Under the pieces are notes generated by a model. The model saw nothing but the letters and a program-made list of their open reading frames with translations, did no database searches and was not told the DNA's origin. Shown piece by piece: positions 42,547 to 46,879 of a DNA stretch of 64,000 nucleotides (its first letter is position 1; the number at the start of each line of letters is the position of its first letter). This stretch comes from Fervidibacillus halotolerans (lineage in GTDB: Bacteria > Bacillota > Bacilli > Bacillales > Caldibacillaceae): the NCBI RefSeq assembly GCF_026547205.1, contig NZ_CP106877.1, positions 1,452,771 to 1,516,770 on the forward strand, written 5' to 3'. A program made the translations under genes and the position numbers.

Positions 42547-44439
42547 TCATGCCCTTTTTTTCTTATTTTGATATTGTTCGATCATCGTTTGGGTGATATT
42601 TTCGACAGTTAATCCGACTTCTTTTTGCAAGCTTTTCACATCACCTTGTTCAATAAATCGATCCGGTATACCCATTCGGATAATTTCCGCCGAATGGAAT
42701 TTATGAACACTGGCAAATTCCAATACAGCACTTCCAAAGCCGCCCTGTAAAACGGCCTCCTCAACGGTAACAATGGGGATGTTTTGCATCAAAAGATTTT
42801 TTAACATCTGTTCATCAAGAGGCTTAATGAAACGGGCGTTAATGACTTTGACATAAATACCGTATTTTTCCAACTGTTGAGCTGCTTTCATTGCCATCGG
42901 AATCGTCGTACCAAATGTCAGAATGGCACCATCAGCACCTTCCCTTAACACTTCCCAAGAACCAATTGGTATTTTTTGCCATTTTTCATCCAAAGGTACC
43001 CCTAATCCGTTTCCTCGAGGAAAACGCATCGCAATAGGGCCGTCATCGTATTTTAAAGCGGTATAAATCATATGTTGAGCTTCATTTTCGTCCTTCGGCA
43101 TCATCAATACCATATTCGGCAAATGGCGTAAAAAGGCAATATCAAAAACACCTTGATGGGTTTCTCCATCCGCTCCAACGAGTCCAGCCCGATCAATGCC
43201 GATAAATACGTTCAAATTTTGACGGCATATGTCATGAACAATTTGGTCATAGGCCCGTTGGAGAAAAGTAGAGTAAATGGTCAAATACGGTTTCATCCCT
43301 TCGATGGCAAGTCCCGCTGCCATTGTCGTCGCATGCTGCTCGGCAATACCGACATCGATCACTCGATCCGGAAATTCATTTTGAAACCCTTCCAATTTGC
43401 TTCCAACGGTCATCGCTGGAGTAATGGCAACGATTCGAGAATCCTCCCGAGCAAGCTTTCTCACCGTTTCACTAACGATTTTACTCCATGATGGGGGAGA
43501 ATTGACTGGTTTTACGAAATCCCCTGTCTCAATTTTGTACGGACCGGTACCGTGCCAATTTCCCGTTTTATCACTTTCTGCTGGATAATATCCCTTTCCT
43601 TTCTTCGTAATGACGTGAAGCAATACAGGGCCTTCGGTTTTTTTCGCATACTTTAAGCTCTCAAATAACTCATCAAATTGATGCCCGTCTACCGGACCTA
43701 AATACGTAAAGCCAAGTTCTTCAAAAAACATTCCTGGGACGAGAAAATATTTGAAACTATCCTTTAATCGTTCAGCAGTGGATGCCATCATATTACCAAC
43801 GGCAGGAATCTTTTTAAATAAAGATTCGATTTCATCCTTCGCCCGATTATACTTACCTGCTGTACGAATTCTACCTAATAGATTATGGAGAGCACCGACA
43901 TTCGGAGCAATGGACATTTCATTATCGTTTAAAATAACGATCATATTCTTTTTCTCATGGCCGATATGATTTAAAGCTTCCAAAGCCATTCCACCGGTTA
44001 ATGCTCCATCACCTATAACGGGGACAACGTAGTACTTTTCACCCCTTAAATCCCTAGCTGTAACCATTCCCATAGCCGCAGACAAACTTGTCGAACTATG
44101 CCCCGTTTCCCATACGTCATGCTCACTTTCCGACCTTTTTGGAAACCCGCTTAAACCTTTATATTGCCTTAACGTATCAAATTCCTTCGCCCGTCCCGTC
44201 AAAATTTTATGCACGTAAGTTTGATGTCCGACATCCCATACGATTTTATCCCTCGGGCTATCAAACATACGGTGAAGAGCAATCGTCAATTCAACAACAC
44301 CGAGATTCGGTCCGATATGACCGCCTGTGATCGATAGTTTTTCCACGAGGAATTTTCGTATATCACTACTGAGTTTCTCCAATTCTTTTATAGACAAATT
44401 GCGTAAAAAGGACGGGTCCTCGATCGATAGCAAATCCAC
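42547..44439 (-). CDS. dxs: 1-deoxy-D-xylulose-5-phosphate synthase
   Basis: Thiamine diphosphate enzyme that condenses pyruvate and glyceraldehyde 3-phosphate, the first step of the non-mevalonate isoprenoid pathway. 630 residues. [12 protein letters not shown] motif [31 protein letters not shown] (in segments), and the transketolase core [15 protein letters not shown]. The start is placed at GTG 44439 ([11 protein letters not shown]), which matches family N termini; TTG 44463 is also possible because it follows AGGAAACGATAA. Directly downstream of the putative oapA. Confidence 0.94.
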
Positions 44440-44463
44440 GTAGGAACACCCACTTTCATTCAA

Positions 44464-45126
44464 TTATCGTTTCCTGTTTTCTTTAATTATAACGATATGA
44501 AATTTTTCATCAAGAAATTGAAATAATTTTCCGGCTTGTAAAATGATTTGCTTCGAATAATTGATGGCAAATGTTTTTCCGAACGCTTTACCTCCAACGG
44601 TGAATGCAGCGATAAAGCTAGTAAAAAGTACTGAGATGACATATTCCTTAACAGAGCCACTACCGATGGAAAACTGGATTGCCAATTGTACGATGACGAT
44701 GGCAGAGGCTGTTCCACTGACGATTCCAGCGATATCGCCGATGACATCATTGCAAAATGAAGCCACTTTATCTGCATTTCGAACGATTCGAATCGCATAT
44801 TTCGATCCGTACACTTTATTTGCCGCCATCGAGTGGAAAGGGATTTCATCGGCAGAAGTTGAGGCAATACCGATCATATCGAATACGATTCCAATGAAAA
44901 CGATGGTGAAAACAACGATGATTCCTAAAATCCATGTAAGACCATCTAAAATATAATTAGAAAAGATTGAAAAAATAGCCGCTAACACAAATGTGATAAC
45001 GGCGATCGAAACACTCCATTTTAACGAATTTTTAAAAGTTTTCCTCATCATTCGACTCACTTTGCCTAATAATATGTAAAAAGAGGCGTATAGCCCCTCG
45101 CTTGTGATCATGGATAAAATCAACAT
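44464..45126 (-). CDS. oapA: OLE RNA-associated membrane protein OapA
   Basis: 220-residue membrane protein with about four hydrophobic helices (ISIAVITF...IFSIF; LGIIVVFTIVFIGIVFDMIGIA; SAIVIVQLAIQF; VISVLFTSFIAAFTVGG). Charged conserved-looking segments are ANKVYGSKYAIRIVRNADKVASFCNDVIGDI and the basic tail HIVIIKENRKR. It matches my memory of OapA (BH2780) of B. halodurans, which binds OLE RNA and brings it to the membrane. The position just downstream of the RNA and upstream of dxs is that of the known OLE locus. The start is ATG 45126 or ATG 45111; neither has a clear Shine-Dalgarno. Confidence 0.8.
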   Translation of the reverse strand: MLILSMITSEGLYASFYILLGKVSRMMRKTFKNSLKWSVSIAVITFVLAAIFSIFSNYILDGLTWILGIIVVFTIVFIGIVFDMIGIASTSADEIPFHSMAANKVYGSKYAIRIVRNADKVASFCNDVIGDIAGIVSGTASAIVIVQLAIQFSIGSGSVKEYVISVLFTSFIAAFTVGGKAFGKTFAINYSKQIILQAGKLFQFLDEKFHIVIIKENRKR

Positions 45127-45129
45127 TGC

Positions 45130-45675
45130 GGCTTAGGTCCAGTAGGTTTTCCCAAGCAAATACCCGGTGTCGCCAACCAGGCGGTTTCCCTTTAAAATTG
45201 CCTTAACCGTGTCGCCATCGATTAGACTGGATTACCACTTAGTCCGCACTCTAATCCTTTATCCACGTTCGTTACGAAACAGTCTAGGAGTTTCCTCGAA
45301 CAGTTCGAACTAAACCTTAGCCTCTTTTGCAAAGCAGATTTCATACGGACGGAAGAATACGTACTAGCGGCCAACTTTCCGTACCTTTTAACCGTAATCC
45401 CCTCGTACTTCACGCAAGGCAGGCTACACTGCCTGTGGCTTTCCCACAAAGACAGGGTTTCACTTTGCAACGGTTGCCCAATTGCAAAGCCTCCGCGGTC
45501 AAAGGGTCTACGCCCGCATGCCATTGCGGATCGCCCTTTAACCTTACTCCCAAAAATGACCCAGGGCTGGGCGCCCCAAGCCAAATTCAGAAACTTCATC
45601 GATGTGCCCTTTAGTGGATTTTTAGCCCCACCTTCAAGTTCAGTGAACTGACTAGAATACTGCATCACATGAACG
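45130..45675 (-). ncRNA. ole: OLE RNA (ornate large extremophilic RNA)
   Basis: The gap between ispA and the membrane protein gene is 630 bases, far richer in G and C than the intergenic DNA around it, without a credible gene. It has its own sigma-A promoter. Strong pairings are visible: CTTTGCAA (45463-45470) with TTGCAAAG (45482-45489), GGCAG with CTGCC at 45418-45433, and the palindrome GGGCGCCC near 45570. TGGCGACAC occurs twice near the 3' end (45167-45175 and 45209-45217). Size, location among ispA, dxs and xse, and the following OapA-like gene are those of OLE RNA. Ends are approximate. Confidence 0.82.
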
Positions 45676-45681
45676 CTTTCC

Positions 45682-45710
45682 ATTATATCACAAAGTATTG
45701 ACATCATCAA
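45682..45710 (-). promoter_or_regulatory. Promoter of OLE RNA
   Basis: On the minus strand TTGATG (45710-45705), 17 bases, TATAAT (45687-45682). Transcription should start near 45675. It lies just beyond the ispA stop codon, so the RNA can be made both from here and by read-through. Confidence 0.75.
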
Positions 45711-45756: not shown

Positions 45757-46644
45757 TTAATGATCCCGTGAACCGATCAAATCGGTAATCATTTCGAGTT
45801 TTTTCGTATGTAAAGGGAGTTCTGCAAGCAATCGTTTCGCTTCAGTTACGTGTCCATTCAATTTTTCTTTCGCTCCATTCAATGTCAATAAACTAGGATA
45901 TGTGCTTTTATTTTTATTTTTATCACTACCCGTTTGTTTTCCAATTTTTTCTGGTTCTCCTTCGATGTCTAAAATATCATCTTGAATTTGGAACGCTAAA
46001 CCGATATGGTAGGCAAATTGTTCTAATTTTTCCGTCGTTTCCTGATCTGCATCCGCCAAAATCGCTCCGGCTTTGACACAGAACGTAAGTAATTTTCCCG
46101 TTTTGTTGGCATGGATCTTTTGCAATTGATGGATCGAAAGTTGTTGATTTTCCCCCTCCAGATCGGCAACTTGTCCCCCAACCATTCCTTCTGGACCGCT
46201 TGCTTTAGCCAACTCTCGAATCAAAACTATTTTTTTTTCACAAGGGAGAACGGAAGATGGAATTTCCGATAATAATTGAAAACTGTATGTGAGTAATCCG
46301 TCGCCAGCCAATATGGCCATCGCTTCACCAAATACTTTATGATTCGTCGGTTTTCCCCTGCGCAAATCATCATTATCCATACTCGGTAAATCATCATGGA
46401 TTAAGGAATACGTATGGATCATTTCAACGCTTATGGCAACTGGAAGGCCATAGGTACCGTCCATCCCAAAAGCGTCTAAAGTTGCGAAAATGAGAAGCGG
46501 GCGAATGCGTTTTCCTCCTGCTTCCAAAGAATAGATCATGGATTGTTTTAATGTATCCGGCATATGTAAGTTTTGAATATTTTTCGACAATTCCTCATTT
46601 AATAACGTGATGAGTGGCTTCATTTCTCTTTGAAAATCGGTCAA
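45757..46644 (-). CDS. ispA: Polyprenyl (farnesyl/geranyl) diphosphate synthase IspA
   Basis: Condenses isopentenyl diphosphate with allylic diphosphates. 295 residues. EAGGKRIRPLL, the first aspartate motif in LIHDDLPSMDNDDLRRGKPTNHK, and the second in FQIQDDILDIEGEPEKIGKQTGSDKN. The start is TTG 46644 (MTDFQREMKPL) behind AGAGGAGG with 9 bases of spacing; it lies 5 bases after the xseB stop. Followed by the OLE RNA promoter. Confidence 0.93.
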   Translation of the reverse strand: MTDFQREMKPLITLLNEELSKNIQNLHMPDTLKQSMIYSLEAGGKRIRPLLIFATLDAFGMDGTYGLPVAISVEMIHTYSLIHDDLPSMDNDDLRRGKPTNHKVFGEAMAILAGDGLLTYSFQLLSEIPSSVLPCEKKIVLIRELAKASGPEGMVGGQVADLEGENQQLSIHQLQKIHANKTGKLLTFCVKAGAILADADQETTEKLEQFAYHIGLAFQIQDDILDIEGEPEKIGKQTGSDKNKNKSTYPSLLTLNGAKEKLNGHVTEAKRLLAELPLHTKKLEMITDLIGSRDH

Positions 46645-46648
46645 TCGG

Positions 46649-46879
46649 TTATTCCTCCTCTTGTATAACAAAGGTTTCCATTTCCCCTGTTTCCTTGATC
46701 ACTTTCACCATTTGTTCCTCTGCACTTTTCAATTTCTTTGAACAGATTTTTGCCAATTCCATTCCTTCTTTATATTTGTCAATTGCTTTTTCCAATGGAA
46801 CATCCCCTTCTTCCAAGGACTCCACAATGGCTTCTAATTTTTCCATCGCCTCTTCGAAGGTGATTGTTTTTTCATCCAT
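46649..46879 (-). CDS. xseB: Exonuclease VII small subunit
   Basis: 76 residues; single helical-hairpin protein with TFEEAMEKLEAIVESLEEGDVPLEKAIDKYKEGMELAK pattern. Binds XseA in several copies to form the single-strand exonuclease. Overlaps the end of xseA by 8 bases. Confidence 0.95.
   Translation of the reverse strand: MDEKTITFEEAMEKLEAIVESLEEGDVPLEKAIDKYKEGMELAKICSKKLKSAEEQMVKVIKETGEMETFVIQEEE

Follow-up and report, generated by a model that had tools for sequence, protein, structure and literature searches.

A conserved RNA hairpin inside the oapA coding sequence is retained after loss of OLE RNA and OapA

The beginning of oapA, the gene that follows ole in an isoprenoid operon of Fervidibacillus halotolerans, contains a conserved hairpin with a U-tract that does not belong to OapA and is kept in genomes that have lost both OLE RNA and OapA. 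Judged by its pairing pattern, the element is an RNA structure. It is probably a conserved intrinsic terminator or attenuator that stops OLE transcription and restricts read-through into dxs, the gene for the enzyme at the entry to the isoprenoid pathway, independently of the OapA protein. The locus lies in a window of 64,000 nucleotides, by which we mean the whole stretch of DNA that was analysed. Positions of all features in this window are listed in Table 1.

On the minus strand of the window the gene order is xseA-xseB-ispA-ole-oapA-dxs-tlyA-argR-recN. Assignments were made with Pfam and NCBIfam except for the last gene, which we take to be recN from its sequence. The order from xseA to argR bears out the isoprenoid-locus synteny (ispA, xse and dxs nearby) that the initial annotation had put forward. 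The 630-base gap described there was also confirmed, extending between the ispA stop codon at 45757 and the start of a 220-aa open reading frame at 45126. The start assigned to this frame is too far upstream: homologues begin at ATG 45051 or 45048. A covariance-model search with cmscan returned a full-length match to OLE RNA on the minus strand of the gap (RF01071, model positions 1-616 of 616, 456.6 bits, E 8e-131; gathering cut-off 50 bits), and the identity of the RNA as OLE is beyond doubt. The annotated sigma-A promoter TTGATG-17-TATAAT was present, and the promoter type of ole is also kept in OLE-less relatives.

Compared with OLE RNAs described by RF01071, the F. halotolerans RNA shares the full-length model match, the tandem oapA gene, the location in the isoprenoid operon, a promoter of its own and candidates for OapB and OapC in the same genome. 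The OapB candidate matches OLE-associated protein B in PDB 7k9b (E 2.8e-30), and the OapC/YbxF candidate is encoded between rpoC and rpsL (match to 3v7e, E 5.5e-24). We found no essential difference; the score is among the lower ones in the order, and a stem region in the middle of the RNA is shorter than in the model. A GGCC occupies the counterpart of L9.3, described as the loop that makes the symmetric kissing contact in OLE dimers (PMC12286853). The duplication of TGGCGACAC noticed in the initial annotation is real, with one copy in the end loop of each of two 3′-side hairpins, but it is no new candidate for a protein-binding site, since both copies fall within P12.2/P13, the known OapB-binding region (PMC9723947). 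A search for the OLE-anticorrelated MpfA found two to three CNNM-domain proteins in each of the eight genomes of the F. halotolerans family.

The protein identity proposed for oapA stood, while the conserved hairpin inside the gene had been missed. Identity is supported by the tandem ole-oapA arrangement, by co-occurrence with OLE in the family, where both are present in exactly the same two of eight genomes, and by 55% identity to OapA of H. halodurans C-125, whose locus (L049) was recognised by its match to published primers. The protein aligns with 24 homologues at 52-75%, each of them encoded behind an OLE. Across the 25 sequences the D-x3-D motif (NDVIGD) is invariant or nearly so, and its positions are the residues changed in mutant PM1 (PMC9723947). 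OapA has no family model in Pfam or NCBIfam and no structure in PDB. OLE and OapA of F. halotolerans are the standard pair and an ordinary member of an already known class.

Table 1. Features of the ole-oapA locus of F. halotolerans in window coordinates.
Feature	Position	Strand	Basis or remark
ispA, farnesyl diphosphate synthase	45757..46671	-	operon neighbour
ole promoter, TTGATG-17-TATAAT, TG before -10	45682..45710	-	sequence and scan
OLE RNA, full length	45088..45684	-	RF01071, 456.6 bits; sole copy in the genome
GGCC in loop corresponding to L9.3	45369..45372	-	sequence, placed via cmscan alignment
TGGCGACAC copy 1, end loop of first of two 3′-side hairpins	45209..45217	-	cmscan alignment
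TGGCGACAC copy 2, end loop of second 3′-side hairpin	45167..45175	-	cmscan alignment
Weak hairpin (-6.2 kcal/mol) followed by T5, between OLE and oapA	45083..45097	-	probably not conserved
oapA, 195 aa from ATG 45051 (or 194 from 45048)	44464..45051	-	homologue starts
Conserved hairpin element in oapA	44968..45003	-	stem-loop 45003-44978; U6 44975-44970
dxs	42547..44463	-	directly downstream of the hairpin element in relatives without ole-oapA

Alignment of oapA starts revealed an identical stretch of DNA despite proteins that are only about 50-75% alike. Codons 17-28 read GCCGTTATCAC-N4-GTGTTAGCGGC-NN-TTTTTTCA, which corresponds to a hairpin plus U6 with a calculated stability of -14.3 kcal/mol (z -5.7). 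When the codons were randomly replaced with preservation of the protein, the natural stability was reached in 35 of 21000 trials. Synonymous sites of the hairpin are constrained: among 71 dereplicated oapA sequences (<90% identity) its codons were 84-100% fixed, most of them 94-100%, including GCC (69/70), GTT (69/70), ATC (67/68), GTG (69/69), GCG (69/70), ATT (51/51), TTT (70/70) and TCA (62/66). Most other codons drift freely and follow pooled usage, and most residues that are equally conserved elsewhere in oapA are encoded by free codons; high-z serine columns in this analysis reflect the AGY/TCN split. The ten base pairs of the hairpin hold in 98.7% of cells, a value reached in none of 500 shuffles, and three pairs were changed on both sides, indicating covariation.

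Scanning from the OLE 3′ end into oapA detected a terminator-like hairpin at this codon site in 64 of 67 OLE loci, as the sole such structure behind OLE. The hairpin at 45097-45083 was rejected as the OLE terminator; it is weak, and a terminator-like hairpin was scored in the gap between OLE and oapA in 1 of 67 OLE loci. A simple terminator scanner did not include the intragenic hairpin in its list, so a negative result in scans of this kind carries little weight here. Against R1, a covariance model of the hairpin, the element in oapA scored 59.3 bits. The next best match in the window (25970-25936, minus strand, 20.8 bits, GCCGTTG...CAACGGC plus a T run) looks like an ordinary terminator and was discarded as a second element.

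Of 299 genomes sampled from the order, 173 contain OLE and 204 the strict hairpin pattern; the reversed-pattern control gave none among the matches listed. Comparison of the OLE list with the motif list by eye assigned the motif to 166 of 173 OLE-positive and 38 of 126 OLE-negative genomes, the latter including an incomplete genome (G210) with oapA still present at a contig edge. A further OLE-positive genome (G074) has a version of the hairpin with G.U pairs. The oapA hairpin is absent from the OLE-positive family f23 and from the OLE-positive genomes G032, G256 and G296. At three f23 loci (L227, L229 and L232 of G105, G029 and G072) a different hairpin, its tail rich in T, lies upstream of the oapA start at a distance of about 50 nt and is possibly a replacement terminator. 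In 20 loci with a clostridial-type oapA the hairpin was not found. Unrelated terminator-like hairpins with long T runs lie in the first 60 nt of four such genes (L182, L187, L188 and L192), and an analogous intragenic terminator may have arisen there independently. Outside the order, a model from 24 hairpins gave single strong matches in two families (f199 and f210), once more within oapA, and in the OLE-less genome G722 of this set the hairpin is located in the ispA-dxs gap. Two further loci are peculiar: oapA of L057 (genome G181) seems frameshifted behind the hairpin, owing to either pseudogene formation or a sequencing error, and a record named Pseudomonas sp. ISL-84 (L090), probably a mislabelled genome, carries a Bacillaceae-type oapA with the hairpin.

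In the OLE-negative genomes examined the hairpin resides in the ispA-dxs gap, in most of them outside any long reading frame. Ten of 29 further OLE-negative genomes without a strict match have a variant that differs in its bases or in the length of the loop. A strong ole-type promoter was present 8-100 nt upstream of the hairpin in 17 of 35 OLE-negative gaps, compared with 1.2 expected; in L203 and L211 the hairpin directly adjoins the -10 box, and a transcript from that promoter may therefore lack the full stem. Five OLE-negative genomes from genera with OLE-positive members contain broken remnants of the oapA start, inside which the hairpin is unaltered. In G153 (L247), where no dxs was found, a paired and fully covaried variant lies between ispA and tlyA. 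At locus L170 (genome G230) the stretch from ispA to the hairpin is about 400 nt longer than in sister genomes, and the hairpin is unchanged. In a quick, single-gene IspA tree the hairpin-bearing OLE-negative genomes are scattered over many places, and the label 'OLE-less with hairpin' changes at least nine times on well-supported branches. Within the GTDB family of F. halotolerans, this species and Bacillus kwashiorkori keep OLE, oapA and the hairpin. The other six of the eight genomes in the family (L195-L200, G002-G007) have lost all three together and have ispA-dxs gaps of 88-223 nt.

According to the terminator/attenuator model, RNA polymerase starting at the ole promoter would synthesize OLE and mostly stop within the first 80 nt of oapA. 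This stop would prevent the OLE transcript, which is very abundant, from swamping dxs and the genes beyond, and it would set a low ratio of OapA to OLE, leaving OLE in excess over OapA and dxs mRNA. Deletion of ole and oapA would leave the promoter and the hairpin ahead of dxs, where they would form a short leader attenuator. The hairpin resembles Bacillota intrinsic terminators and leader attenuators in its GC-rich stem, its short loop and the U6 tract within 2 nt and, in OLE-less genomes, in its site between a promoter and a biosynthetic gene. It differs from them in that it lies within a coding sequence in OLE-positive genomes, that its stem sequence is nearly invariant across families with a central mismatch retained, and that no alternative antiterminator stem was seen. 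In H. halodurans, the predicted transcript from the promoter to the U-tract comprises 755 nt, which would then have to be trimmed by about 118 nt to give the reported OLE of about 630-637 nt (PMC9723947).

Plain termination does not require a particular stem sequence, so the conservation of this sequence counts against simple termination. At the position 3 bp below the loop the two bases do not form a standard pair in 22 of 24 sequences, and this mismatch is kept although OLE-negative genomes are free of coding constraint at these bases. G044 has no U-tract, and the tract is short or broken in f199, f210 and several OLE-less genomes; the stem is retained, so that pure termination is not the whole explanation. 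The conserved stem sequence, the mismatch and the instances of a poor U-tract together point to an additional reader of the stem. It is conceivable, if clearly less likely than the terminator/attenuator function, that the hairpin is above all a binding site at which a protein would recognize the mismatched stem and control downstream antitermination, translation or decay. The operon itself encodes proteins with RNA- or nucleic acid-binding domains, TlyA (S4 domain) and ArgR. Hairpins in mRNAs that are read by dedicated antiterminator or autoregulator proteins form a general class, with which the element shares a conserved mismatched stem, a terminator-type tail and a single site per genome. 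It differs from members of this class by having no known binding protein and no Rfam match; comparison of three OLE-less leader loci with 4227 Rfam families gave no match up to E 1. Against this reading, the U-tract is well kept in most genomes, with at least six T within nine bases after the stem in 115 of 117 OLE-positive hairpins, so termination should be at least part of the function, and a single copy per genome provides no regulon for comparison. We infer that the hairpin terminates transcription and that a factor acting on the invariant stem may modulate this process.

An imperfect palindrome that abuts or follows a promoter in OLE-less genomes might also be a DNA operator for a transcription factor controlling the ole or dxs promoter. 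We regard this as improbable. Among OLE-negative genomes the arms are separated by loops of 3 to 6 nt, a variation in spacing that speaks against an operator, base changes preserve RNA pairs including G.U, the U-tract is strand-specific, and in OLE-positive genomes the element lies about 700 bp from the promoter. Even less credit is due to the view that the hairpin is merely a processing or 3′-protection signal for OLE. OLE is considered to arise by cleavage of a longer precursor transcript (PMC9723947), and in H. halodurans the hairpin follows the published OLE 3′ end by 83 nt, but it is kept in many genomes without any OLE. A role as part of the OLE structure or as a pairing partner of OLE was dropped because the hairpin is present in genomes without OLE. 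That there is nothing beyond OLE and OapA, with codon fixation resulting from protein constraint, codon bias or recent descent, is refuted despite the good conservation of the encoded peptide AVITFVLAAIFS itself, as equally conserved residues elsewhere in oapA have free codons, the hairpin persists outside any reading frame and in oapA remnants, and hairpin-bearing OLE-less genomes recur several times in the IspA tree.

OLE and OapA were already known, and priority for the hairpin is unproven. It is not described in the OLE literature searched, which was a partial selection that did not extend to the 2006 discovery paper, so that an earlier mention is possible; the literature search returned nothing relevant on a dxs leader or terminator. 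The hairpin offers a concrete account of how OLE may be released from the operon transcript; on this step the literature searched states only that the RNA is 'presumably posttranscriptionally processed'. The hairpin would also tie expression of OLE to the control of dxs. Recoding or deletion of the oapA start calls for caution, because it may alter OLE ends and dxs levels. Survival of the hairpin after several losses of ole and oapA represents a natural experiment, in which selection acts on an RNA element and not on a protein, and suggests that the isoprenoid operon has a control switch not yet described. More tentatively, and with considerable doubt, the hairpin could represent an undescribed class of cis-acting RNA regulators of the dxs segment, read by a factor, older than or independent of oapA and set free as a dxs leader switch at each loss of ole-oapA. 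If this is true, oapA of OLE-positive species codes across an older or independent hairpin.
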